In this document: piece by piece, positions 8,765 to 25,858 of the stretch
Layout: every line of letters begins with the position of its first letter
How positions within the stretch are numbered: position 1 is the stretch's first letter
Virus record (IMG/VR): IMGVR_UViG_3300006947_002508
Span: 1-25,858 of that record
Reading direction: 5' to 3' (one strand)
Origin: a virus
DNA: 25,858 nt
Notes under the pieces: model-generated
Databases searched by the model: none
What the model was told of the DNA's origin: nothing
What the model saw: the letters and a program-made list of their open reading frames with translations, nothing else
Position numbers and translations under genes: made by a program

Positions 8765-8950
8765 ATGAAAAAAATAGAATTCACACAAAACCTCGGTCCT
8801 GGAAAATGTTCCAAGTGTGGAATTTTCATTGAAGAGAATGTTAAGATGTTTGTGGCAACGAACTTAACAGGAAGACCGAGTTTAACAAAGGAACAACTAG
8901 TAATGGTTGAACCTGAGTTTTGTGAAACATGTCACGCCAAGCTGGTTTAG
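8765..8950 (+). CDS. Small zinc-ribbon protein overlapping the tRNA
   Basis: A 61-residue protein with two CxxC pairs, CSKC near residues 15-18 and CETC near the C-terminus. Together they form a likely four-cysteine zinc ribbon. The spacing between the pairs, with a hydrophobic VKMFVATNLTG strand between them, fits a single small domain. Its last codons and stop (TAG, 8948-8950) lie inside the first ten bases of the tRNA-Thr gene. Translation through the tRNA 5' end would therefore precede or compete with tRNA processing. The role is unknown; it may bind nucleic acid. Confidence 0.65.
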   Translation: MKKIEFTQNLGPGKCSKCGIFIEENVKMFVATNLTGRPSLTKEQLVMVEPEFCETCHAKLV

Positions 8951-9016
8951 CTCAGTTGGTAGAGCAACTGATTTGTAATCAGTAGGTCGACAGTTCGAAC
9001 CCGTCAATCAGCACCA
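8941..9016 (+). tRNA. trnT: tRNA-Thr (anticodon UGU), CCA encoded
   Basis: A full cloverleaf is visible. The acceptor stem pairs GCTGGTT with AATCAGC (one G-T pair). The D arm is GCTC/GAGC with AGTTGGTA in the loop. The anticodon stem is ACTGA/TCAGT with loop TTTGTAA, giving anticodon TGT. The T arm GACAG/CCGTC carries TTCGAAC, with one A-C mismatch. The 3' ACCA is encoded. It reads ACA, a frequent Thr codon in this AT-rich sequence. The 5' end overlaps the zinc-ribbon gene, and the GroES-like gene begins 17 bases after the CCA. Confidence 0.93.
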
Positions 9017-11790: not shown

Positions 11791-12729
11791 ATGAAAGAAG
11801 ATTTTTTATGGGTTGAAAAATACCGTCCTCGAACTATATCAGATTGTATTCTACCAGTAGAAACAAAAAAGATATTTCAAGATTTCGTAGATAACAAAGA
11901 GATTCCGAATCTACTATTATGTGGTACTGCAGGTGTAGGTAAAACTACAGTTGCAAAAGCACTATGTAATGAACTAGATGCAGACTTCGTGATGATTAAT
12001 GGTTCTGAAGAAAGAAACATTGATACTCTAAGAGTCAAGATTAAATCTTTTGCTTCTACTGTTTCATTGAGTGGTGGACCGAAGATAGTTATTCTAGATG
12101 AAGCAGATTATCTTAATCCACAATCAACACAACCAGCACTAAGAGGATTCATAGAAGAGTTCTCTAGAAACTGTAGATTCATATTTACTTGTAATTACAA
12201 GAACAGAATAATATCACCATTACATTCAAGATGTAGTGTTGTTGACTTCACAATAGAATCACAACAGAAACCACAGATGGCTAGTGGTATCTTTCAGAGA
12301 ATAAATACAATTCTAAAAACAGAAAATGTTGAATACAACGAACAAGTTGTAGCAGAGTTGATCAATAAGTTCTTTCCAGACTTTCGTAGAATCTTAAATG
12401 AACTACAAAAGTATTCAACATCAGGTAAGATTGACAGTGGTGTCTTGGCGAATCTTGATGATGAAAATCTTAATGAAGTTATCGGGTTCATTAGAGACAA
12501 AGAGTTCTCAAAAATGAGAAAGTGGGTTGCTATGAATATACATAATGATCCTCAAGCAATATACAGAAAAATATACGATAGTCTGTTTACACGAATGGAA
12601 AACTCAAGTATACCACAAGCAATTATTATATTGAGTGACTATACTTACAAGAGTGCATTTGTTGCAGATCAAGAAGTCAACATGGTAGCATGTATGACAG
12701 AATTAATGATGGAGTGTAAACTAAATTGA
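11791..12729 (+). CDS. 44: Clamp loader large subunit gp44
   Basis: A 312-residue AAA+ clamp loader, close to T4 gp44 (319). It starts with WVEKYRPRTISDCILP. Walker A GTAGVGKT is at residues 45-52, Walker B ILDEADYLNP follows, and the SRC motif is present in PLHSRCSVVDF. A C-terminal helical collar region with FPDFRRILNELQKY completes it. With gp62 it loads gp45 onto DNA. In T4 the gp62 gene follows directly; here gp62 is found about 5.8 kb further on, beyond the deazaguanine cassette. The stop overlaps the TTG start of the QueD gene. Confidence 0.93.
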   Translation: MKEDFLWVEKYRPRTISDCILPVETKKIFQDFVDNKEIPNLLLCGTAGVGKTTVAKALCNELDADFVMINGSEERNIDTLRVKIKSFASTVSLSGGPKIVILDEADYLNPQSTQPALRGFIEEFSRNCRFIFTCNYKNRIISPLHSRCSVVDFTIESQQKPQMASGIFQRINTILKTENVEYNEQVVAELINKFFPDFRRILNELQKYSTSGKIDSGVLANLDDENLNEVIGFIRDKEFSKMRKWVAMNIHNDPQAIYRKIYDSLFTRMENSSIPQAIIILSDYTYKSAFVADQEVNMVACMTELMMECKLN

Positions 12730-13163
12730 AATATCAAGTAGTAAAAACATACGGTAATAGTACAGGACATTCTTGTGCTTTTAGACAGTACAAAGCAACA
12801 AGTCATTGTAGACTTATTCATGGTTATGCTTTAGGGTTTGAAATAACATTCGAATCAGAAACATTAGATGAAAGAAATTGGGTTATAGATTTTGGTGACT
12901 TAGGTGTGTTAAAAGGATTTCTTAAAGATACCTTTGATCATACAACAGTTGTATCAATAGATGATCCAGAGATTGAATCGTTCAGAGAATTAGAAAGTAA
13001 AGGTCTTATAAGACTGATTGAAATGCCTCATGTAGGTTGTGAAGCTTTCTCAAGAGAAGTCTATGACTTTTGTGTAGACATGTTTCAAGATGACAGAGTC
13101 AGAGTTAAATCTGTTAAAGTATTTGAACATGGAAGTAACGCAGCAGTATACGGAGATATGTAG
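12726..13163 (+). CDS. queD: QueD-like 6-carboxytetrahydropterin synthase
   Basis: A 145-residue PTPS-family protein. QueD converts 7,8-dihydroneopterin triphosphate to 6-carboxytetrahydropterin, the second step towards 7-deazaguanines. The landmarks are H15 in TGHSCAFRQ, C28 and H32 in SHCRLIHGYAL, WVIDFGDL, a DHTTVVSIDDP segment and a C-terminal VFEHGSNAAVY. A known alphaproteobacterial branch shares the SCAFRQ...SHCR..HGYAL pattern. The usual HGH is HGY here, so one zinc ligand may be replaced, perhaps by H27. The start is TTG: it overlaps the gp44 stop, and no ATG lies upstream of the conserved N-terminus. Confidence 0.88.
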   Translation: MKYQVVKTYGNSTGHSCAFRQYKATSHCRLIHGYALGFEITFESETLDERNWVIDFGDLGVLKGFLKDTFDHTTVVSIDDPEIESFRELESKGLIRLIEMPHVGCEAFSREVYDFCVDMFQDDRVRVKSVKVFEHGSNAAVYGDM

Positions 13164-13165
13164 AA

Positions 13166-13666
13166 GTGATTGTCAAACTAATTTATGGAACTGAAACAGG
13201 ATTTACTCATCAAATAGGTGAGGATATAATCAGACATTTAAATCCAGAGATTCATCACTTGATTAAAGTTGATGAAACAGAAGAAACAGATTGGAAAGCA
13301 GACTTATTAATATTGGGTGCTCCAACATGGTTTGACGGTGAAATGAGTGATGATTGGAATGACTTCTATAATTCATTTAAAGAGATTGACTTTACAGGAC
13401 AAACAGTTGCTATCTATGGTCTTGGTGATCAAGTCGGTTACGGTAAAAACTTCGTTGACGGTTTAGGGTTATTAGCAAGACCTGTATTAGAAGCTGGTGG
13501 AAGAGTTATCGGATATACAAGTACAGATGGATTCAACTTCGAAGAATCAAATGGTTTAGTTAATGACAATACATTTTATGGTATGGCGATAGACGAAGAC
13601 AACGAACCAACTAAATCTCCATGGAGAATAATGGATTGGGTAAAACAACTTAAAGAAGAATTATGA
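13166..13666 (+). CDS. fld: Flavodoxin (long-chain type)
   Basis: A 166-residue flavodoxin, the length of long-chain FldA. The FMN phosphate loop YGTETGFT is at residues 7-14. GAPTWFDGEMSDDW carries the first flavin-stacking Trp, and GLGDQVGYGKNFVDG forms the second flavin loop. The C-terminal half ends in RIMDWVKQLKEEL. The start is GTG, three bases after the QueD stop. It lies directly before and coupled to QueE (ATGA). Flavodoxin is the electron donor for the radical-SAM enzyme QueE in E. coli as I recall, so this protein probably supplies electrons to the phage QueE. That link is inferred from position. Confidence 0.93.
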   Translation: MIVKLIYGTETGFTHQIGEDIIRHLNPEIHHLIKVDETEETDWKADLLILGAPTWFDGEMSDDWNDFYNSFKEIDFTGQTVAIYGLGDQVGYGKNFVDGLGLLARPVLEAGGRVIGYTSTDGFNFEESNGLVNDNTFYGMAIDEDNEPTKSPWRIMDWVKQLKEEL

Positions 13667-14550
13667 TTGAAAAAGAATACGCATACTCAGAAATCTTTGA
13701 TTCAATTCAAGGTGAAGGACACTATACAGGTAGACCAACTGCTTGGTTACGTTTCTTTCTATGTAACTTACAATGTAATGGATTCGGACAAGATGATCCG
13801 ACTAAACCAGAGACATATAAACTACCATACAAGGACTTTGATTTAATTGAAGTGAACAGAATGGAAGACCTACCGGTATGGGAATACGGTTGTGACAGTT
13901 CTTACTCATGGTCTAAGAAGTTTAAACACTTACAACACATAGGTACTTCAGAAATGATTGCTGATAAGGTCAGAGAATCATTTACAAATCAATACAATGA
14001 CGGTAAATGGTTAGAGAGACACATGTGTTTTACAGGTGGTGAACCAATGATGAAACATGCTCAACAATGTACAGTTGAAATCATGGAACGATATATTAAT
14101 GAGAGAGACTTTCCAAAGTTTGTTACTTATGAGACTAATGGTACACAATTACTTAGAAACGAAACTCTTAACTTCTATCAAGATTATCGTGACAGATGGG
14201 GTGGAGAATGTTTCATTTCATGTAGTCCGAAATTATGGAATGTAGCTGGTGAAACAAACAAAAGAGCAATCAGACCAGAGATTGTTAAAGACTATGCAAT
14301 GATGACAGATTCAGGACAACTAAAGTTTGTTGTGAACGGTACAGATGCATGTTGGAAAGAATTAGAGGAAGCTATAGAAGCTTTCAGAGACCATGGAGTA
14401 CATTGGCCAATATGGATTATGCCTGTTGGAGCAACTGTAGAAGGTCAAAAATTATTAGACGGTGATGTAGCAAGAGAAGCTTATCTTCGTGGATACAATG
14501 TAAGTGCGAGAGTTCATACTTACTTGTGGGGAAATTTAATAGGAGTATAG
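13663..14550 (+). CDS. queE: QueE-like 7-carboxy-7-deazaguanine synthase (radical SAM) with an interrupted cluster motif
   Basis: A 295-residue radical-SAM enzyme for the ring contraction of 6-carboxytetrahydropterin to 7-carboxy-7-deazaguanine. It opens with the QueE signature EIFDSIQGEGHYTGRPTAW. The Fe-S cysteines are C34 and C38 in FFLCNLQCNGF, and the third is best placed at C77 in GCDSSYSW, the equivalent of the family's WCDT. That gives CX3CX38C instead of CX3CX2C, with the insertion bearing LP...DLPVWEY. CFTGGEP is the SAM-binding motif, followed by VTYETNGTQ and ISCSPKLWNVAGE. Similar inserted forms occur in alphaproteobacteria as I recall. It is preceded by flavodoxin and followed by QueC. 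Confidence 0.88.
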   Translation: MIEKEYAYSEIFDSIQGEGHYTGRPTAWLRFFLCNLQCNGFGQDDPTKPETYKLPYKDFDLIEVNRMEDLPVWEYGCDSSYSWSKKFKHLQHIGTSEMIADKVRESFTNQYNDGKWLERHMCFTGGEPMMKHAQQCTVEIMERYINERDFPKFVTYETNGTQLLRNETLNFYQDYRDRWGGECFISCSPKLWNVAGETNKRAIRPEIVKDYAMMTDSGQLKFVVNGTDACWKELEEAIEAFRDHGVHWPIWIMPVGATVEGQKLLDGDVAREAYLRGYNVSARVHTYLWGNLIGV

Positions 14551-14551
14551 A

Positions 14552-15253
14552 ATGGATAAAGTATTAGTAGTATTAAGTGGTGGATTAGATTCGTCAGTAG
14601 TGACAATGATGTTGTGTGATCAATATGGGTCAGAGAATGTACATGCAGTAACTTTTGATTATAATCAAAAACAGAAATTAGAGATTGAGAAAGCATCTTC
14701 ATTATGTAAAGAGTTGAAAGTAGAACATACAGTTCTTGACTTATCAGTTCTTGGTGAGATAGCTCGACCAATGTCAGCAAACATATCAGATACAGATATA
14801 GAGATGCCTAACATCAAAGAGGTCTTAGGTGATCCTCAACCAGTTACTTATGTACCTTTCAGAAACATGATTTTACTATCATTGTCATTGTCTCATGCTG
14901 AAGTACAAGGTTGTAATAAAGTATATACAGGTTTACAAGTTCATGATGAATACGGATATTGGGATACGACACAAAAGTTTGTAGACTCAATGAATGTAGT
15001 TGCAGGACAAAATAGACAACATGCAGTAGAAATACTAGCACCATTTAGTCAGATGTCAAAAGCAGATGAAATTGATGTTGCTATTAAACTAGGTAAGTTT
15101 GATTTACTTAAACATACATTGACATGTTATAATCCTCAAGGTGTAGTATCTTGTGGTAAGTGTCCATCATGTGCAGAGAGGATAATGAACTTTATGAAAG
15201 TTGGTAGAAAGGATCCTATTCCATATGATATTGATATAGACTGGAGAGTATAA
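14552..15253 (+). CDS. queC: QueC 7-cyano-7-deazaguanine (preQ0) synthase
   Basis: A 233-residue ATP-dependent enzyme that converts 7-carboxy-7-deazaguanine to the nitrile preQ0 through an amide intermediate. The PP-loop SGGLDSS is at residues 9-15. Next come AVTFDYNQKQKLEIEKA and the conserved VPFRNMILLSLSLSHAE (compare VP.RN...L). A C-terminal zinc site with CYNPQ...CGKCPSCAER supplies the four cysteines. It has full length and all family motifs. It sits one base after the QueE stop and is followed one base later by a class II glutamine amidotransferase, a pairing that recalls Gat-QueC fusions. Confidence 0.95.
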   Translation: MDKVLVVLSGGLDSSVVTMMLCDQYGSENVHAVTFDYNQKQKLEIEKASSLCKELKVEHTVLDLSVLGEIARPMSANISDTDIEMPNIKEVLGDPQPVTYVPFRNMILLSLSLSHAEVQGCNKVYTGLQVHDEYGYWDTTQKFVDSMNVVAGQNRQHAVEILAPFSQMSKADEIDVAIKLGKFDLLKHTLTCYNPQGVVSCGKCPSCAERIMNFMKVGRKDPIPYDIDIDWRV

Positions 15254-15254
15254 T

Positions 15255-15920
15255 ATGTGTGCAATATTTGGAAGTAAAGACAAAGAAAAGTTCTTAGAAT
15301 TAGCAGAACTAAATCAATACAGAGGTAAAGCATCTCATTCAGTATCAATGTTTACAACAAGTAACTTTGAGAACTATGATAATTTATCACTTACAAAACA
15401 TGTAATGACATCTAAGAAACACGGATTATTCAATTCACAGATTGTAGATGAATTTACAGAAGACGATAAGTCTCATTGGACAACATATTATCTCGGTCAT
15501 GTACAAGCACCAACTACAGATAATAAATCAGACATTCATCCGTCTGAAATTGTAGGTGACTTACTATGGCACAATGGTATCATTAAAGACTACCAAGTAA
15601 CTGATTGGAAAAGAAAGTATGGATTACTTAATTGGGACACAGGATTACTACATAGACATTTCATCTTAGGTGGTGACCTAAATAACATTGACGGTACATT
15701 TAGTTGTGCAAGATACGAATACGGACCTGGAGCATTGACTCTATTCAGAAATGAAATTAGTCCATTATTTTTTGATGACGATTTGAATATCTCGTCAACA
15801 GAATTCGATAACTCATTAGAAACTGAATCAGGAGTTCAGTATCTAATGGACATTCGAAGAAGTGAACTCGAACCTATGAAAAGGTTTGAAACAAAAGAGA
15901 ATCCTTATTATTTCGGTTGA
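15255..15920 (+). CDS. Class II glutamine amidotransferase-like protein (Gat)
   Basis: A 221-residue Ntn-hydrolase. It starts MCAIFG, so removal of Met would expose Cys2 as the catalytic nucleophile. YRGKASHS, LGHVQAPT and LLWHNGIIKDY correspond to the glutamine-site blocks of class II amidotransferases (RG.dd, GH.R.., HNG.I.N). It stands alone, with no synthetase domain. Gat domains fused to QueC are known from archaea and some phages, where they are linked to archaeosine-type (formamidine) 7-deazaguanines. The adjacency to queC suggests the same chemistry from separate proteins, which is inference. The folE promoter overlaps its stop codon. Confidence 0.8.
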   Translation: MCAIFGSKDKEKFLELAELNQYRGKASHSVSMFTTSNFENYDNLSLTKHVMTSKKHGLFNSQIVDEFTEDDKSHWTTYYLGHVQAPTTDNKSDIHPSEIVGDLLWHNGIIKDYQVTDWKRKYGLLNWDTGLLHRHFILGGDLNNIDGTFSCARYEYGPGALTLFRNEISPLFFDDDLNISSTEFDNSLETESGVQYLMDIRRSELEPMKRFETKENPYYFG

Positions 15921-15945
15921 CGGAAACTGGATTCTATTATATAAT
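15917..15945 (+). promoter_or_regulatory. Sigma-70-type promoter for folE
   Basis: TTGACG (15917-15922) overlaps the stop of the amidotransferase gene. It is followed by a 17-base spacer and a consensus TATAAT (15940-15945). The leader then gives GGAGAAATATATT before ATG 15972. It allows folE and the downstream genes to be transcribed separately from the start of the cassette. Confidence 0.75.
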
Positions 15946-15971
15946 AGATATATACATTGGAGAAATATATT

Positions 15972-16628
15972 ATGAAAACAGATAGAAAACTTGGTAGACA
16001 AGTACAAGAATATCTAATTGAGAATGGTGTTGAAACACCTATCGTTGAGAGTAATCTCAACAAAGAAGAAAAGATCGACCTTATCAGAGAGAACATGGAA
16101 ATTGTTATTGATGTCTTAGGTCTTGATAGAGAAGACGATTCAATATCAGGAACAGCAGACAGAGTAGCTAAGATGTATGTATCAGAACTATGTTCAGGTT
16201 TATCTTATAACGAGTTTCCAAAGGTTTCGGTCTTTGATAACAAAATGGGATATGACCAAATGGTCGTCCAGAAAGACATTACTTTCCATTCAATGTGTGA
16301 ACATCACTTTGTAAACTTTAACGGGTTTGCACAAATAGCTTACATACCAAATGATAAAGTTGTTGGACTTTCTAAACTAAATAGAATTGTAAACTTCTTT
16401 GCTCGAAGACCACAAGTACAAGAAAGATTGACTGAACAAATATTCTATGCACTTAAACACATCTTGAATACAGATAACATTGCTGTTCTTATACAAGCAG
16501 AACATCTTTGTGTCAAGTCAAGAGGTATCGGTGATCAATCATCAGGAATGACTACATCTAAGTTAGGTGGATTCTTCTTCGATAAATCTTCAGTAAGAAG
16601 TGAATTTATGAGTCTAGCAAACAGATGA
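15972..16628 (+). CDS. folE: GTP cyclohydrolase I (FolE)
   Basis: A 218-residue GTP cyclohydrolase I, which makes dihydroneopterin triphosphate from GTP, the entry step of the 7-deazaguanine pathway. The zinc ligands are C109 and H112 in FHSMCEHHFVNF and C180 in AEHLCVKSRGI. VGLSKLNRIV and RRPQVQERLTEQI form the remaining active-site blocks. An in-frame TTG at 15957 would extend it, but ATG 15972 with the GGAGAAATATATT leader is the likely start. The same leader design precedes the gene at 9357. The stop overlaps the transglycosylase start (ATGA). Confidence 0.95.
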   Translation: MKTDRKLGRQVQEYLIENGVETPIVESNLNKEEKIDLIRENMEIVIDVLGLDREDDSISGTADRVAKMYVSELCSGLSYNEFPKVSVFDNKMGYDQMVVQKDITFHSMCEHHFVNFNGFAQIAYIPNDKVVGLSKLNRIVNFFARRPQVQERLTEQIFYALKHILNTDNIAVLIQAEHLCVKSRGIGDQSSGMTTSKLGGFFFDKSSVRSEFMSLANR

Positions 16629-17917
16629 ATTTCGAATATGTAGTGTCAGGATTGACAATGGGAATTGATGATTTATATTATAATGAAACAGTAGCTGCAC
16701 CATATATTAACCACATGAATCAGAAGATTGTTGACTTAGATGCTAAGCATGACAATCAGAATTTATCATTACTCTATAATGCACATCAAGAAAGAAAACA
16801 CGGTGTGACTATGACAGATACAATGCCAGATTCTTGGCATAGACTATTTGCTGATTCAGGTGGATTACAAATGGCTCGAACATCAAAAGGAATAACTGAT
16901 GAACTAAAAGATAAAGTTTATTATCATCAAGCAAAATATTGTGATGTAGCAATGATATTTGATGAGATACCGATTGAGTTTGATTTATCAATGGTCGGTG
17001 GTAACAATATGAAAGCAACTCTTAACGGTAGAAGATTTGACAGAAGTGATATTAAAAGATCAGCTCTTGCAACATTAGAGAACTGTAAAAGACAAATAGA
17101 AGTCTTTAAAGAGTGTGACTCTAAAGCAAAGATGATGTTAATATCACAAGGTCAAACAGTAGAAACTTATAAAGAATACATTGAGTTGATATGTAACGGT
17201 TTGTCAGATGATGAAATCGATATGTTTGTATGTGGAGTAGCACCAAGTTCATTATGTAATGGTAACTCATTCGCACATAGATGTGAAATGATTTACGCAA
17301 TGAAAGAATATGAAATACCAGATGTCATTAAAAATAATGTACATTTATTAGGTGTAGGTAATCACGAAGCATTGTCTCCGTTTTATCTATCTCCTGATTA
17401 TTTTAGTTTCATAGAAAATCTTTCTTATGATTCTTCTTCACATGCATCATCTTGGTTTTATTCAAGATACAGAGACAAGAACTTCAAAGCAATTGATGTA
17501 GATGTTGTGAACAGGTCTAAGAGAGGTCTATCACAAATTCATCATGAACAATTATTACCAATCATCAACGAATTATTTGATATTGATGGTAAGACATTTA
17601 GAGACTTTGGAATCAATAGTCCGATGCAGTTGATCAATGATTCAACAAAATGGTCAGTAGAGAATACTTCTGGTGACAGAAGGTTCTGGAAAGAAACAGA
17701 TTCAGGAATTGCTGGGAAACATTTAGCTCCATGGTTTTGGGTGACTAATACAGTAGGTAATTTCATGACAGAATTACAAAGGAGAATTGAGAATCCTGTA
17801 GATAATACAGGTCTTGGTTCAGTAACAAACTATGACGAGTTCTTAAAGAACTGGTTATCAAGACAGAGAGCACCTGCCAAAGTTCCAGAACATTGGCCAG
17901 GAATATTAGACGTATGA
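16625..17917 (+). CDS. dpdA: DpdA-like (TGT-type) 7-deazaguanine transglycosylase
   Basis: A 430-residue TIM-barrel protein of the tRNA-guanine transglycosylase superfamily. FADSGGLQMAR carries D77, matching the DSGGFQ base-binding Asp of TGT. HLLGVGNHEALSPF matches the barrel GVG region, and YDSSSHASSW carries D269 at the position of the catalytic Asp. The CxCxxC zinc site of tRNA TGT is not seen in the C-terminal part. That loss, the phage setting and the complete precursor pathway favour DpdA, which swaps guanine in DNA for a 7-deazaguanine, over a tRNA enzyme. The C-terminal region (about 330-430) contains HLAPWFWVTNTVGNFMTEL and is not assigned. It is coupled to folE upstream and to a 39-residue gene downstream. 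Confidence 0.82.
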   Translation: MNFEYVVSGLTMGIDDLYYNETVAAPYINHMNQKIVDLDAKHDNQNLSLLYNAHQERKHGVTMTDTMPDSWHRLFADSGGLQMARTSKGITDELKDKVYYHQAKYCDVAMIFDEIPIEFDLSMVGGNNMKATLNGRRFDRSDIKRSALATLENCKRQIEVFKECDSKAKMMLISQGQTVETYKEYIELICNGLSDDEIDMFVCGVAPSSLCNGNSFAHRCEMIYAMKEYEIPDVIKNNVHLLGVGNHEALSPFYLSPDYFSFIENLSYDSSSHASSWFYSRYRDKNFKAIDVDVVNRSKRGLSQIHHEQLLPIINELFDIDGKTFRDFGINSPMQLINDSTKWSVENTSGDRRFWKETDSGIAGKHLAPWFWVTNTVGNFMTELQRRIENPVDNTGLGSVTNYDEFLKNWLSRQRAPAKVPEHWPGILDV

Positions 17918-19260: not shown

Positions 19261-20640
19261 ATGAAGAGTCTAAAAGAATTTGGCTCATTTCTAAATGAAG
19301 CTAAAACTGAAGAGAAATATCGACTTCTATTAATATCTGCCGAACTCGGTGATAAAGCTGTTACAGCTCAACGAATGGAAGACGAAGCTAAGAAGTTAGG
19401 TTACGAGTTCTATGTAACAAAAATGTCAGGTACTTACATCCGTAGGTCAGATGAAGGCGTCTGGACAGTTCACAAGGAAGGAGACGACAAAGGATTCGTA
19501 GTTGATTCCTCTGATACAGTTTGCTTTGTTCGTGGTACACCTGAACGAGATAGTTGGTTAGACTTAATATCACAATTAGAAAGAGCAGGTATACCTATTG
19601 TAAATAGTAGAGAATGTATGGAACTAGCTTCTGATAAATATCGTACTTACTTAAGATTACAAGAATACGGTCTAACACAACCTAAGACAGTTCTACTTCC
19701 TAAAGAAGAACAGATGGAACAAGCTGTAAAAGAGTTAGAAACAGATTACCCAATCATAATGAAAACACTTAGAGGTTCTAAAGGAGTCGGTGTATTATTC
19801 ATAGAGTCTGAAAGAGCTCTAATTTCATTAGTTCAGTTATTATTTAAACAAGATAAGAGTGCTGATTTACTAATTCAAGAATATAAAGAAACAAAATTTG
19901 ATGTCAGAGTATTAGTTCTCGGTGGTAAGATTATTGCTACGATGCAGAGAGATGTATTAGAAGGTGATTTCAGAAGTAATTATTCACAAGGTGCTAAAGT
20001 AAAGACTTATAATCTAACCGATCTAGAGATAGAACAATGTCTAAGAGCAGCGAAAGCAATTAACGGTCAGTTTACAGCTGTAGACTTTATTCCTTCAGAT
20101 GATACTGAAAAAAATCCTCCGTTCATATTAGAAGTTAATAGTTCACCAGGGACAGAAGGTATCGAAGAAGCTAATGATATGAATATCGTTAAAATTGTAT
20201 TACAACATTTTAATAAAAAATCTACAAGATATACAGTACCTTCAGAATGTGGTTGGGAAGAGATAGTCGACTTAGGTCATTTCGGAACAGTTACAGCTAA
20301 ATTTGATACAGGTAACTATAAATATCCTGTAATGCATGCTGAAGACATTAAAGTCACAGGTGGTAAGGTTACATTCAATAATGGACATAAGACAGTCACA
20401 ACAAAAGTTAAAGGTTCGTATGTATCAGTTACAGGTGGTGGAGAAGATGAAAGACTTCTTATTGAAGATGAATTCTCATTCGCAGGTAAAAACTATGGTA
20501 TAGTTCAATTCGGACTAGACGATAGAAGTAGAATGGGTACAGATGTTCTTTTAAATAGAAAGATAATGTCAAGATTAAATGTCATTGTTAATCCTCAAAG
20601 AAAATATGTAGTTACTACACCATATCAAAAAGAAGTATAA
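19261..20640 (+). CDS. ATP-grasp (RimK-like) ligase fused to a retropepsin-like domain, with a capsid-targeting-like N-terminus
   Basis: A 459-residue fusion. Residues about 20-310 form a RimK-type ATP-grasp ligase: the glycine-rich loop IMKTLRGSKGVGVLF, the ATP-site segment LIQEYKETKFDVRVLVLGGKI (in two parts), and the metal site FILEVNSSPGTEG. Residues about 330-455 resemble the RimK-associated aspartic-protease-like domain: VDLGHFGTVTAKFDTGN with D349, and VQFGLDDRSRMGTDVLLNR. The N-terminus MKSLKEFGSFLNEAK resembles the T4 capsid-targeting sequence MKTYQEFIAEA, with a possible prohead protease site after E13 (LNE|A). The substrate is unknown. It occupies the place where gene 43 follows regA in T4. 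Confidence 0.8.
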   Translation: MKSLKEFGSFLNEAKTEEKYRLLLISAELGDKAVTAQRMEDEAKKLGYEFYVTKMSGTYIRRSDEGVWTVHKEGDDKGFVVDSSDTVCFVRGTPERDSWLDLISQLERAGIPIVNSRECMELASDKYRTYLRLQEYGLTQPKTVLLPKEEQMEQAVKELETDYPIIMKTLRGSKGVGVLFIESERALISLVQLLFKQDKSADLLIQEYKETKFDVRVLVLGGKIIATMQRDVLEGDFRSNYSQGAKVKTYNLTDLEIEQCLRAAKAINGQFTAVDFIPSDDTEKNPPFILEVNSSPGTEGIEEANDMNIVKIVLQHFNKKSTRYTVPSECGWEEIVDLGHFGTVTAKFDTGNYKYPVMHAEDIKVTGGKVTFNNGHKTVTTKVKGSYVSVTGGGEDERLLIEDEFSFAGKNYGIVQFGLDDRSRMGTDVLLNRKIMSRLNVIVNPQRKYVVTTPYQKEV

Positions 20641-21365: not shown

Positions 21366-21382
21366 ATACACAATTAGACGAG

Positions 21383-21410
21383 AAAGGACTCAAAGTTGAG
21401 TCCTTTTTTT
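21383..21410 (+). terminator. Strong Rho-independent terminator
   Basis: AAAGGACTCA (21383-21392) pairs perfectly with TGAGTCCTTT (21397-21406) around an AAGT loop, and is followed by Ts up to 21410. It separates the IscA-like gene from the curli operon. Confidence 0.92.
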
Positions 21411-21420
21411 ACATAAATAC
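21411..21420 (+). promoter_or_regulatory. T4-late-type promoter (ACATAAATAC) for the curli-like operon
   Basis: ATAAATA at 21413-21419 matches the late -10 core. The ten bases are identical to 7988-7997, and in both places they follow a terminator. AGGAA (21432-21436) and ATG 21446 follow at normal spacing. Confidence 0.65.
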
Positions 21421-21445
21421 AAGTGTAATACAGGAAACATAAATT

Positions 21446-21760
21446 ATGGATATATTAGGATTGATAGCAGAAGTTGGAGCTCCAATAGCAGGAGCGTTAG
21501 TTATGGGATTCTTTATCTTTCTTGTTTTGAAACAAATACTAGACGGAGTTGTTGATGACATCAAAACATTGACTTCTTTTTGTAAAATGTTAGAAGACAG
21601 AGCAAGAGTCGGCAGTAATGAGTTAATAAAGATTGATTTGTTAGTAGGAAGTGCGTTGAATTTGACACCTGACATAGATAGAATAGCAAGAGCTGAGAAC
21701 TTTAGAACAAACGAGAAAGGTATACCTCAGAATGTTAAACTAGATGTGAGGAGAGACTAA
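21446..21760 (+). CDS. Membrane-anchored protein, first of a tandem paralogous pair
   Basis: A 104-residue protein. A short N-terminus and one membrane helix (about residues 8-35, including PIAGALVMGFFIFLVLKQIL) are followed by a helical soluble region with TSFCKMLEDRARVGSNELIKI. It resembles the next protein in layout and in spaced residues (GxPI...L.MG.FI...K.I.D...I.T). The shape, one N-terminal helix then a coiled region, recalls BhlA/UviB holin-like proteins, but similarity to them is only suggestive. It is the first gene after the late-type promoter. Confidence 0.7.
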   Translation: MDILGLIAEVGAPIAGALVMGFFIFLVLKQILDGVVDDIKTLTSFCKMLEDRARVGSNELIKIDLLVGSALNLTPDIDRIARAENFRTNEKGIPQNVKLDVRRD

Positions 21761-22074
21761 TGGACGGTACAGACGCATTAGCTCAAGCAATAAGTGATTT
21801 CGGATTTCCGATCATCATGTCCTTAGGTATGGGATATTTTATATATTTTATCTGGAAATATATAACCGATAAATTGGAACCAGAGATAGAAACTATGCAT
21901 TATGCACTGATAAAGTGTATTGATGCTAATCGAATGTTAGACAATGATATGATACGACTACAACAAAAAGTTAAAGTTGTATTAGAGTATCGTGAAAGAC
22001 AGGAAGTAATAGAGGACGCTAAAGAAAAAGAAGCTTTAGCAGAAGTGAAAAATGTTAAAAAGGGTAAAAAATAA
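21760..22074 (+). CDS. Membrane-anchored protein, second of a tandem paralogous pair
   Basis: A 104-residue protein. The membrane helix covers about residues 15-35 (FPIIMSLGMGYFIYFIWKYI) and is followed by a charged coiled-coil region (LDNDMIRLQQKVKVVLEYR, then many Glu and Lys). It is paralogous in layout to the preceding protein. It has a good Shine-Dalgarno, GAGGAGA (21748-21754), and its start overlaps the previous stop by one base. The 3' end overlaps csgF by 23 bases. Its role could be holin-like or an inner-membrane partner of the secretion cluster; neither is proven. Confidence 0.7.
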   Translation: MDGTDALAQAISDFGFPIIMSLGMGYFIYFIWKYITDKLEPEIETMHYALIKCIDANRMLDNDMIRLQQKVKVVLEYRERQEVIEDAKEKEALAEVKNVKKGKK

Positions 22075-22579
22075 ATCGTTAATTGCAATTAGTTGTCTGA
22101 TGTTTTCTTTAATGTTACAATCAGATGAACTAACACACAACTTTAAAAGTCCGAGTTTCAGTGGTATAGGTATTTCAGCACATTATCTTACTATTGAGAA
22201 CCAAGAGAAGTCAAGAAAGGATGCTATTCAAGAAAAAATCGAATCAGCATTATTAGCAGCAGAGAGAGAACTCGAAAATTCAGTCATGGCAAAATTCATG
22301 AGGAATTTAGAGAGTAGAATCTATGCTCAGCTTAGTAAACAATTAGTAGAAAGTTTATTTAAAACATGTGATTTAATAGCTAATCCAACATGTACTCAAT
22401 CAAACTTCGGTAGTTTTACATTAGAAGGTAATACTGTATCGTATCTAAGAACAACATGTGATACATCTGCAATGGAAGGATGTACATTAGGTGAAGAAGT
22501 TATTATCTTAACAGTAACAGCTACAGACGGAACAACAACGACAATTACAATACCTGTAGGAAATGGTAATTTTGGATAG
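22052..22579 (+). CDS. csgF: CsgF-like curli assembly protein
   Basis: A 175-residue exported protein. A signal peptide (KRVKNKS then LIAISCLMFSLMLQS) probably ends near S24. The mature N-terminus DELTHNFKSPSFSGIGISAH matches the CsgF start (F.f.NPnFgG), the part that inserts into the CsgG pore. A helical middle with NLESRIYAQLSKQLVESLF and C-terminal strands with TATDGTTTTITIPVG match marine alphaproteobacterial CsgF proteins as I recall them. It contains four cysteines (mature region) absent from E. coli CsgF, perhaps disulphides. It likely anchors curlin-like fibres at the CsgG channel. csgG follows directly. Confidence 0.85.
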   Translation: MLKRVKNKSLIAISCLMFSLMLQSDELTHNFKSPSFSGIGISAHYLTIENQEKSRKDAIQEKIESALLAAERELENSVMAKFMRNLESRIYAQLSKQLVESLFKTCDLIANPTCTQSNFGSFTLEGNTVSYLRTTCDTSAMEGCTLGEEVIILTVTATDGTTTTITIPVGNGNFG

Positions 22580-22583
22580 AAGT

Positions 22584-23507
22584 ATGAGAACATCTCTTCT
22601 TATAACATTTGCCTTGTTAATGAGTAGTTGTGCTTCAATAGTACCATTGAATGGTATTAGTGATACTAATTGTGTAAGTATTGTAGAGTGTGCTGAAGAA
22701 CCGATAACAATAGAACTTCCTACACATGAGAAGTTATTGAATTTACCACCAGCAAAAGAAAAACCTGTTATTGCTGTGTATAAGTTTACAGATCAAACAG
22801 GTCAGAGAAAACAAAAAGGTAACGCAGCAATGTTTAGTACAGCTGTGTCACAAGGTACAGCAACAATGTTAATAGATGCATTGAAGACCGCTGGTGATGG
22901 AACATGGTTCAGAGTCGTTGAGAGAGTTGGTTTAGATAACTTAACTAGAGAACGTCAGATTGTAAAGAACACTAGAGCAGCATATGAAGATTCAACTAAG
23001 TTGGCTCCTATGTTGTTTGCAGGAATTATTTTAGAAGGTGGAATTATTGGTTATGATACTAATATTGAAACCGGAGGAAGAGGAGCGAGATATCTTGGTA
23101 TAGGAATGCAACAAGCCTATAGAAGAGATATTGTAGTCGTTCACTTAAGAGCAGTCAGTACATTGACTGGTGAGATTATATTAAATGTACAAACATCAAA
23201 AACTATATTGTCGGTAGCGACAGGATTTGATGTTTTTAAGTTTGTCGAACTTGATACTCAATTAGTTGAGATAGAAGACGGTATGACAGAAAATGAAAGT
23301 GTAACTAGAAGTGTTAGGTCAGCGATTGAAGCTTCTGTTTACGAATTAATTCTTCAAGGAGATGAAAAAGGATTTTGGAATATCAATTGGCCAATTACTG
23401 AAAAGGTAATTAAAGATCAGATAACAAAAGTCTTTGATGAAAAAGATGTTGTTCTTGTTGAAGAGACAATAATAGAAGAGGAAAATAAAAATGAAAATAA
23501 TGAATAA
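22584..23507 (+). CDS. csgG: CsgG-like curli secretion channel lipoprotein
   Basis: A 307-residue outer-membrane lipoprotein. The signal peptide MRTSLLITFALLMSSCAS places the lipidated Cys at C16. Landmarks shared with E. coli CsgG are PVIAVYKFTDQTGQRK, FSTAVSQGTATMLIDALK, WFRVVERVGLDNLTRERQI, GGRGARYLGIGMQQAYRRD, LRAVSTLTGEIILNV and TSKTILSVATGFDVFKFVE. The family forms a nine-subunit pore that exports unfolded curlins. In the constriction the E. coli Phe56 is kept, while Tyr51 and Asn55 appear changed. A non-conserved segment follows the lipobox, and the C-terminus is acidic. ATG 22584 is chosen because the lipoprotein signal starts there. Confidence 0.95.
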   Translation: MRTSLLITFALLMSSCASIVPLNGISDTNCVSIVECAEEPITIELPTHEKLLNLPPAKEKPVIAVYKFTDQTGQRKQKGNAAMFSTAVSQGTATMLIDALKTAGDGTWFRVVERVGLDNLTRERQIVKNTRAAYEDSTKLAPMLFAGIILEGGIIGYDTNIETGGRGARYLGIGMQQAYRRDIVVVHLRAVSTLTGEIILNVQTSKTILSVATGFDVFKFVELDTQLVEIEDGMTENESVTRSVRSAIEASVYELILQGDEKGFWNINWPITEKVIKDQITKVFDEKDVVLVEETIIEEENKNENNE

Positions 23508-24219
23508 ATTATTATTTCTTATATTATGTACACCAACTTTATTATGGGCTGTCGGTGCTAATGATAACGAAATCAAGATAGACCAGGCTGGTGACACATT
23601 AACATTAACCATTGACCAGATCGGTTATGGTAATAAGTTATGTGGAACTATAACCTCTGGAGCTTGTAACGCAGCAATGGTATTAACAGGTACTTCACTT
23701 AATGTAAATATTGATATGATCGGTAACTTGAATAAGATTTACGGACCTGTAATTCTTGATCAGTCTACTTTGAGTATTAATATGGCAGGTTCTAGTAATT
23801 CATGGGATTGGACAGTCGGAGCTTCAGGTTCTGCAGATTCATCTAATTTACTAACAACCATACAAGGAAGTTCTAATACTATGGATTTGAATTGGGGAGC
23901 AGCACAGTCTAGTGAAAGATTAGACTTTGACTTAGATGTAACAGGTAGTTCAAATGTATTTACTACTGTAATTGAAGTTGACGATGCTCGATATGATGTT
24001 GATGTCACAGGTAGTTCAAATGATGTGAACACTAGTCAGACAGACGGAGCTTACAATAAGATTGATTTAGAATTAATTCAATCTAATGGAAACATTGATA
24101 TTGTACAGAGTTCAGGTTCTTGTCCGAGTGGAGTTAGTTCATGTTATAGTGAAATAATAGCGGACTTTGATAGTGAAAATGCTACGATTAATATTAAACA
24201 AAAAGATACTGGCGATTAA
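23491..24219 (+). CDS. Curlin-repeat protein (CsgA/CsgB-like)
   Basis: A 242-residue exported repeat protein. The signal peptide MKIMNKLLFLILCTPTLLWA ends at A20. The mature part is a chain of short strands with turns: LTLTIDQIGYGNKL, LNVNIDMIGNLNKI, INMAGSSNSWDW, TIQGSSNTMDL, LDVTGSSNVFTT and VDVTGSSNDVNT. The alternating hydrophobics, Q.G..N turn and repeated GSSN fit curlin-type beta-solenoid repeats that assemble into amyloid fibres. Three or four cysteines are unusual for a curlin. It directly follows csgG (17-base overlap) and is the likely substrate. Its 3' end overlaps the FecR-domain gene by 41 bases. Confidence 0.82.
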   Translation: MKIMNKLLFLILCTPTLLWAVGANDNEIKIDQAGDTLTLTIDQIGYGNKLCGTITSGACNAAMVLTGTSLNVNIDMIGNLNKIYGPVILDQSTLSINMAGSSNSWDWTVGASGSADSSNLLTTIQGSSNTMDLNWGAAQSSERLDFDLDVTGSSNVFTTVIEVDDARYDVDVTGSSNDVNTSQTDGAYNKIDLELIQSNGNIDIVQSSGSCPSGVSSCYSEIIADFDSENATINIKQKDTGD

Positions 24220-25339
24220 TCTTTGTCTATTATCGACTTTAGTATTTGCAGATGATATAGGTGATATAGTTGAACATAGTGGTAACTCTGGAATAGTCCG
24301 AGAAGGAAGTAAGGAAGTTATCTCTGGTTCAGTTGATGAAGATATATTCTTCAAAGACTCTATAGAAACAGCAACAGGTAGAATGAAGATAGAGTTCGTT
24401 GATGAAACGAAACTATCTCTAACTGAACATACAGAAGTCATAATAGATGAGTATTATTTCGATAAAGACCCTTCAAAGTCTAGAATGGCTATGAAGTTTG
24501 TGTCTGGTACTGCAAGATTTACTACAGGTAAATTAGGATTAGTACCTAAAGAAAATATTATCATAACGACTCCAACAGCAACGATTGGTGTTCGAGGGAC
24601 AGATTTTACGACTAGTGTTGACGAACTCGGAAGGAGTTTAGTTATTCTTCTTCCAGACGCAGATTGCGGATTTATGGAAATCTGTACTCCGTCAGGTGAG
24701 ATAACAGTTACCAATGAAGCAGGTACAGTTATTTTAAACGAAGCTTTTCAGGCTACTATGGTGAGTAGTATATCTACACCACCTGTTCAACCTGTTAAGT
24801 TAGAAAACATAATGAATTTAGATATGATTGATAATATGTTTATCGTGTCACCACCGGAGAAGATAAAGAATGCACAAGCTGAAGAGTCAACTGGAACTAG
24901 TAGTTCTGATAGCGGTATTCTCGATTTCAATGATCTTGATATAGATTATCTTAAAGAAGACTGGGATGATGGAGAAGAAAGTTTAGAGTTTACAGAACTC
25001 GATATGGACTTACTAGATGTCGATTTTCTTCAAGATGTATTAGTTACAATTGAAGAAGTTAATATATTAAAAAGAAGTACAAGATCAAATAATTCTGCAG
25101 AAGGTGGAATAATTGAAGGTACTTCATTGGGATTCGATAAAGAATCACAATACAACACAATCATTGATTCATCAATGGGACAAATATGGTTCTATAGAGA
25201 TGTCAATGGTCTTATAGATATTAGAGTCCCTGTTGAACAGGGAACACGAATAGAGAGTGAAAATGAAGGTAAAACAAATCTTATTTTGGTTAATGACGGT
25301 GAGTCCGTTGTTATTATCATTAAACAGTCTGGCGGATAA
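24179..25339 (+). CDS. Exported FecR-domain protein between two curlin genes
   Basis: A 386-residue protein. The signal peptide MLRLILNKKILAINLCLLS continues to TLVFA, with cleavage after A24. The FecR domain (about residues 45-150) shows GRMKIEFVDETKLSLTEHTE, RMAMKFVSGTARFTTGKL and the hallmark ITTPTATIGVRGTDF. The middle is acidic, with repeated Leu-Asp units (FNDLDIDYLKEDWDDGEES, ELDMDLLDVDFLQDVL). The C-terminus ends VVIIIKQSGG, like a curlin-repeat strand. No sigma-factor or TonB partner is nearby, so iron signalling is unlikely. A wall-binding or fibre-associated role is plausible but not shown. ATG 24179 is chosen over an upstream TTG because it gives a clean signal peptide. Confidence 0.85.
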   Translation: MLRLILNKKILAINLCLLSTLVFADDIGDIVEHSGNSGIVREGSKEVISGSVDEDIFFKDSIETATGRMKIEFVDETKLSLTEHTEVIIDEYYFDKDPSKSRMAMKFVSGTARFTTGKLGLVPKENIIITTPTATIGVRGTDFTTSVDELGRSLVILLPDADCGFMEICTPSGEITVTNEAGTVILNEAFQATMVSSISTPPVQPVKLENIMNLDMIDNMFIVSPPEKIKNAQAEESTGTSSSDSGILDFNDLDIDYLKEDWDDGEESLEFTELDMDLLDVDFLQDVLVTIEEVNILKRSTRSNNSAEGGIIEGTSLGFDKESQYNTIIDSSMGQIWFYRDVNGLIDIRVPVEQGTRIESENEGKTNLILVNDGESVVIIIKQSGG

Positions 25340-25858
25340 TAAAAACTCCGTTATAGTTGGTCAGGTGTCTGGTGCATCAACGGATAACTTGAATCTAAGT
25401 ATTGAACAGATTGGTTACAACAATAAAGTTAATCTTAAATTAGCTCACAACAACAACGCATTACTATTCAAACAAACTGGTAACAATAACGAAATTAGTT
25501 GGGTACCTCAATGGGGTCAACAAAGTAGTGGTGATTTAGACGGTGCTAGTAACTCATTACATTTCGAACAAATGTGTACACGAGGAGTCGGTAACTGTAA
25601 TAAGTCAGACATTCAGATGCATATCTATGGTGATTCTAATAGTGTTCGTTGGGGTCAAGGTCTGTTTTTAACAGGTGCAACGGATACAACATTCGCTAAT
25701 GATGGTGATGAAGGTGGTGGTCATACTCTAAACTTAGATATCCATGGTAGTAATAATTCATTATCGGGGTATCAACGAAATGGTAATGCTAATCTATATT
25801 CATCACATACTGCTACCGTATATTTTTACGTAAAAATATACGGTAGCAGTATGTGATG
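25263..25858 (+). CDS. Second curlin-repeat protein, 3' end unreliable
   Basis: An exported repeat protein with signal peptide MKVKQILFWLMTVSPLLLS followed by LNSLA (cleavage near A24). The repeats include LNLSIEQIGYNNKVNLKL, LLFKQTGNNNEISW, QMHIYGDSNSVRWGQG and LNLDIHGSNNSLSGYQ. LSIEQIGYNNK is very close to LTIDQIGYGNK in the first curlin, so the two are paralogues, perhaps fibre subunit and nucleator. The first 77 bases, including the whole signal peptide, overlap the end of the FecR-domain gene in another frame. A TGA at 25854-25856 lies inside a perfect palindrome at the window edge and is probably artificial, so the gene is treated as truncated. Confidence 0.78.
25801..25858. repeat. Perfect 58-bp palindrome at the window edge (probable fold-back artefact)
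   Basis: Bases 25801-25829 are the exact reverse complement of 25830-25858, with no spacer. The palindrome ends at the last base of the window and lies within the second curlin gene. A natural hairpin would need a loop and would seldom be perfect over 29 base pairs. An end-of-contig fold-back is the simplest reading. Confidence 0.9.

Follow-up and report, generated by a model that had tools for sequence, protein, structure and literature searches.

A curli-type secretion and fibre module behind a late-type promoter in a T4-like viral contig

Introduction

Why would a phage carry the genes of a secreted surface fibre? Pelagiphages with such a curli-type, or type VIII secretion system (T8SS), module are widespread in the ocean. 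CsgF and CsgG have been reported in pelagimyophages, with "sibling capture" proposed (PMC7029224); the complete module, including FecR, a second curlin, an adenylate cyclase, and a "histidine kinase", has been described (PMC9599517); and a role in lysis has been proposed in a study that saw no clumping in infections by phage Melnitz (PMC9004378).

Here we address this question with one IMG/VR virus record of a marine T4-like phage, IMGVR_UViG_3300006947_002508, positions 1-25,858 (the whole 25,858-nt stretch is called the window below), in which the curli cluster occupies 21446-25858. A sequence-only reading of the window had noticed a late-type promoter followed by genes for curli-type secretion and fibres, and this observation is confirmed. 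The module is real, well conserved, and already published for related phages; we add late-promoter statistics, a curlin-like tail and a likely signalling partner for the FecR-domain protein, evidence that the CsgF plug is kept, and a correction of the kinase label. With the shared curlin tail, the pairing of FecR with a CHASE2 cyclase, and the late promoter, what was loosely called an "auxiliary" cluster can be taken apart into testable pieces, and two published readings are argued against—FecR as an iron regulator, and CsgG and CsgF as uncoupled proteins.

Layout of the cluster

The cluster runs along the plus strand with overlapping gene ends throughout, and encodes two small transmembrane (TM) proteins, CsgF, CsgG, curlin A, a FecR-domain protein, and curlin B (Table 1). 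The sequence-only reading had named five proteins on one strand with overlapping ends, which holds for 22052-25829, and its CsgF, CsgG, and FecR assignments are backed by Pfam profile matches (PF10614, PF03783, and PF04773); the extent of the cluster needed correction, since two additional small TM-protein genes upstream move its start to 21446. The window closes at 25801-25858 with a perfect 29-nt inverted repeat lacking a spacer. The terminal copy is probably an assembly artefact, and curlin B is therefore treated as truncated.

Table 1. Features at the curli-type locus of the window.
Feature	Position	Strand	Evidence
Intrinsic terminator at the end of the preceding Fe-S-type gene	21380..21409	+	13-bp stem, -16.6 kcal/mol, z -5.5, T-rich 3' side
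Late-type (T4 gp55-like) promoter element CATAAATA	21412..21419	+	26 nt before first ATG; position conserved
Small one-TM coiled-coil protein 1	21446..21760	+	phrog_18771, E 2e-21
Small one-TM coiled-coil protein 2, paralogue of protein 1	21760..22074	+	phrog_18771, E 4e-24; alignment
CsgF-like exported protein, FKSPSFSG plug motif and C-terminal beta region	22052..22579	+	PF10614, E 4.3e-7
CsgG outer-membrane lipoprotein channel	22563..23507	+	PF03783, E 8e-53; PDB CsgG, E ~4e-44
Exported curlin-repeat protein A of 242 aa with INIKQ at its C-terminus	23491..24219	+	Curlin_rpt in orthologues; AF2 model
Exported FecR-domain protein	24179..25339	+	PF04773, E 1.2e-12; PupR signalling domain fold; tail
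Exported curlin-repeat protein B, cut short at 3' side by the end of the contig	25257..25829	+	HMM label; Curlin_rpt in orthologues
Perfect inverted copy of 25801-25829	25830..25858	+	likely assembly artefact

Relatives and origin

The gene order small TM, small TM, CsgF, CsgG, curlin, FecR, curlin, cyclase is kept with rare gaps in 70 IMG/VR loci, scored wherever the contig is long enough. The window follows this pelagiphage order, the final cyclase being supplied from the relatives, where a CHASE2-cyclase gene comes directly after curlin B; the window lacks it because the contig ends first. The locus is almost certainly a copy of the pelagiphage module. Pelagibacter phage HTVC008M has the same eight genes in this order on the same strand; however, its CsgG is only 46% identical to that of the window, its late element stands directly before csgF, and its second curlin (curB) carries a PA14 domain. 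Methylophilales phage Melnitz also shares the order, with CsgF, CsgG, two curlin repeats, FecR, and the cyclase annotated, but differs in CsgG (42% identity) and in host class. The gene content is thus not new, given these two phages and the full module in PMC9599517; the earlier mention of curli-type genes in pelagiphages was correct (HTVC008M, PMC7029224, PMC9599517), and the paired curlins around a FecR gene, to which the sequence-only reading drew attention, are real, conserved in order, and already published (PMC9599517).

Among bacterial systems, E. coli curli (csgBAC-csgDEFG) share CsgG, CsgF, and curlin repeats with the phage module, which differs in having no CsgE, in its extra FecR, cyclase, and TM proteins, and in its much diverged curlins. 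Two Caulobacteraceae MAG contigs (L084 and L085), with bacterial neighbours, carry csgF-csgG-curlin-curlin-FecR-CHASE2 cyclase genes, the FecR protein here ending in INVTQ; unlike the phage loci, this operon has adjacent curlins and no small TM genes. The Caulobacteraceae CsgG falls inside the phage clade (support 95/89), and the operon may have passed from virus to bacterium, although the AU test does not reject a monophyletic phage group (p 0.21). One further CsgG match, a 1.5-kb unverified sequence labelled Salmonella phage (L003), was set aside.

A late-type promoter

The terminator and ATAAATA element that had been noticed ahead of the cluster both stand—the terminator by its folding score (Table 1), the element by its conserved place across loci. 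Taken singly, one ATAAATA (21413-21419) is no more than would be expected by chance in a window so rich in AT. Of 57 distinct upstream regions, however, 46 have N-ATAAATA no further than 40 nt from an in-frame ATG of the first gene (shuffles 1.2, maximum 5), whereas each internal operon gene has it in only 0-2 loci. In HTVC008M, whose record annotates a late sigma factor, the late element is found at 10 of 35 genes for structural and curli proteins, including csgF itself, and at 0 of 23 replication genes. A TATAAATA-type box near the start and an association with late genes, as in T4-type late promoters, are both seen here, and a sigma-70 promoter scan stayed at chance level. The module is very probably transcribed late, as one operon.

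One spacing of the element greatly outnumbers the others. Exactly 5 nt separate it from the ATG in 25 of the 46 loci; genome-wide in HTVC008M, TAAATA-N5-ATG occurs 12 times, against at most 3 for permuted hexamers; and in six more records 20 of 58 TATAAATA..ATG pairs, counted by eye, have this spacing. The sample comprised HTVC008M (L001, L075-L077), loci L005-L074, and the records behind L024, L050, L064, L031, L048, and L038; the Melnitz structural region has no such spacing. As the T4 late box sits about one helical turn upstream of the transcription start site (PMC2988020), this geometry would place the mRNA start at the start codon, and we infer that many pelagimyophages make leaderless late mRNAs, of which we found no description in the literature searched. 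For the window itself, the predicted mRNA leader is about 20 nt long.

The CsgF-CsgG channel

The window CsgG aligns with E. coli CsgG structures and has an LMSSC-A lipobox, and the CsgF match to its Pfam profile lies above the cut-off. In solved structures, a plug segment of CsgF occupies the CsgG barrel. The corresponding motif, F-x-x-P-x-F-x-G, is present in 56/56 phage CsgF proteins, as F-K-[NS]-P-[SA]-F-[SN]-G with G in place of K in one copy; the window's FKSPSFSG aligns with FRNPNFGG of E. coli CsgF, with a weak profile match to the solved CsgF chains (E 0.14). The constriction Phe is kept in nearly all phage CsgG proteins. Conservation on both sides favours a working CsgG-CsgF channel, and argues against the suggestion that the two proteins may have become uncoupled, made for Melnitz in PMC9004378, where csgA and csgB were also held to be missing. 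No csgE-like gene had been seen in the window, and PF10627 is indeed absent from all seven records tested; CsgE is not strictly essential for curli (PMC7029224) and is missing from alphaproteobacterial modules, as CsgD is from pelagiphages (PMC9599517).

The two small TM proteins upstream of csgF, about 90-115 aa with one hydrophobic helix each, correspond to genes published as "histidine kinase" in the pelagiphage module (PMC9599517). None of 21 relatives matches a kinase domain, which together with their size speaks against this label. A holin identity was also considered and dropped, the only match being a sub-threshold one to YvrJ in a single member; BLAST of the phage collection outside these phages gave one marginal match.

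The curlin-repeat proteins

The claim of two paralogous curlins holds at the level of the family. On their own, the window copies stay below threshold—curlin A reaches Curlin_rpt only at E 0.11, and the curlin B fragment has no Pfam match—but curlin A orthologues match in 16 of 20 cases (best 8.6e-6), those of curlin B reach 1.8e-9, and the two profiles are homologous (hhalign probability 99.5). The proteins carry 4.5-4.9 curlin motifs each, against 0.3-0.5 after shuffling, and curlin A is nearly fixed in length (242 aa in 27 loci). The AF2 model of curlin A is confident and all-beta with a solenoid-like strand pattern (pLDDT 83, pTM 0.78), but has no PDB match at E<0.001. PA14 domains are often glycan-binding. 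In HTVC008M, curB (L001:10638-11963, annotated "hypothetical protein") combines curlin repeats with a PA14 domain at its N-terminus (2.7e-6), and a domain of this type suggests a role in adhesion.

The FecR-domain protein and its probable cyclase partner

The FecR reading frame is best started at the ATG at 24179. With few residues before its hydrophobic segment, the protein has no cytoplasmic N-terminal anti-sigma region; a signal-peptide-like start is followed directly by the FecR domain and then by an acidic linker predicted to be disordered (~236-308), and the C-terminal part is rich in beta structure and ends in IIIKQ. The model is of moderate overall quality (pTM 0.51). By structure search the FecR domain resembles two cell-surface domains, the signalling domain of PupR (E 2e-4) and the anchoring domain 5ix9, to which the sequence match is weak.

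The C-terminal tail links this protein to the curlins. A phi-x-phi-x-Q ending is found in 42/43 FecR proteins, 48/48 curlin A proteins, and 38/41 curlin B proteins, compared with 3/212 other ORFs; it is scarce among FecR-domain proteins of curli-free bacteria (about 2 of 16 others have it, with the curli-linked Caulobacteraceae one set aside). Against the curB profile the FecR tail gives an hhalign score of 19 (best of 20 shuffles, 13), which is weak beyond the motif. Compared profile to profile with curlin A, the FecR C-terminus scored no higher than shuffles, so we make no claim of homology to a full curlin repeat.

The cyclase keeps both of its metal-site motifs in 41/41 complete copies. 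Of 83 strong CHASE2-cyclase matches in 190 alphaproteobacterial genomes, 29 have a FecR domain within 5 kb, where 0.5 would be expected; only one such pair, that of Caulobacteraceae, has CsgG nearby, so the pairing is broader than its link to curli. The extracytoplasmic CHASE2 domain is likely the partner of FecR, by analogy with those Alphaproteobacteria that have the pair without curli. We found no paper describing these pairs in the literature searched. Alphaproteobacterial FecR-domain proteins adjoining CHASE2-cyclase genes (L166-L185) often occur with very large open frames. Domains that bind cNMP are absent from 40/41 genomes of the SAR11 family, which may not be the window's host, and from five phage records, leaving a cAMP output with no obvious receptor there.

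Proposed function

We put the probability at roughly 55% that the locus is a late fibre-export module with a FecR anchor or sensor. Going by its protein family, CsgG would form a channel in the outer membrane, with CsgF as its plug and cap, through which the two curlin-type proteins would pass to build a surface fibre. The FecR protein would be a minor fibre-linked component; its folded domain would be held in the periplasm while the acidic linker and curlin-like tail enter the export path, and so could anchor the fibre or report its assembly. An infected cell would then bear fibres, and would hold on to its neighbours or keep other phages out. Tethering specifically is a tentative suggestion, as is, somewhat less so, the anchor or sensor role of FecR. 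Counting against the overall reading are the unclumped Melnitz infections (PMC9004378), the missing CsgE, the failure of the curlin A model to find a confident PDB match, the scarcity of cNMP-binding domains in the SAR11-family genomes and phage records, and the weakness of the FecR tail match beyond its motif.

One alternative is that CsgG triggers lysis as a late pore in the outer membrane, by depolarising or perforating the envelope, the curlins being passengers or gone (PMC9004378). The late promoter, the lack of a CsgE gate, and the absence of clumping in Melnitz would all suit such a pore; however, unneeded passengers should decay, yet both curlins, FecR, and CsgF remain in order in nearly all loci that are long enough, the CsgF plug motif is invariant, and curlin A hardly varies in length. 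Lysis is for these reasons quite unlikely to be the role. The retained plug, constriction Phe, and curlin tails, together with the HTVC008M PA14 domain, favour a fibre-exporting apparatus, and judged on such sequence features export is probable rather than a bare pore. The sequence-only reading, in which the phage installs its own channel and exports amyloid-like repeats late in infection, is therefore supported in its channel, fibre genes, and late promoter, while the perforation role that it offered is disfavoured by the conserved parts.

A fibre coat that mainly blocks superinfection, as proposed in PMC9599517, draws on the same molecular evidence as fibre export with a FecR anchor or sensor, but late expression comes late for exclusion, and the PA14 domain on one curB (in one isolate, HTVC008M) suits binding better than shielding; we regard it as unlikely. 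Highly improbable is a nutrient-import channel in which FecR would regulate in response to iron (PMC7029224, PMC9599517). That the protein has a FecR domain is not in doubt, but it has a curlin tail and no anti-sigma region, and in the bacteria sampled, where cyclase neighbourhoods were counted, FecR-domain genes pair with cyclases. A fibre-linked periplasmic anchor or sensor is more likely than an iron regulator because of the curlin-like tail, the PupR-type fold, and the FecR/CHASE2-cyclase pairs that occur without curli. A bolder and rather doubtful version would make FecR a plug-and-sense subunit—its domain below CsgG, the linker through the channel, the tail joining or nucleating the fibre, and the CHASE2 cyclase reading the state of FecR. 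If this were true, FecR/CHASE2 would be a general bacterial monitor of surface structures, captured by phages along with curli.

Other features of the window

The rest of the window is T4-like, with gp46/gp47, sliding clamp, clamp loader, RegA, GroES-like, and CobS-like genes; a tRNA-Thr (TGT) gene (8941-9016) lies between the CobS-like and GroES-like genes. A RimK-like ATP-grasp ligase is encoded at 19261-20640, with a C-terminal region weakly similar to a putative ATP-dependent zinc protease family. The stretch 12726-17917 holds PTPS/QueD-like, flavodoxin, QueE-like, QueC-like, weak amidotransferase-like, and GTP cyclohydrolase genes, ends after the last of these with a 430-aa protein of phrog_10773, and is possibly a 7-deazaguanine pathway for DNA modification.
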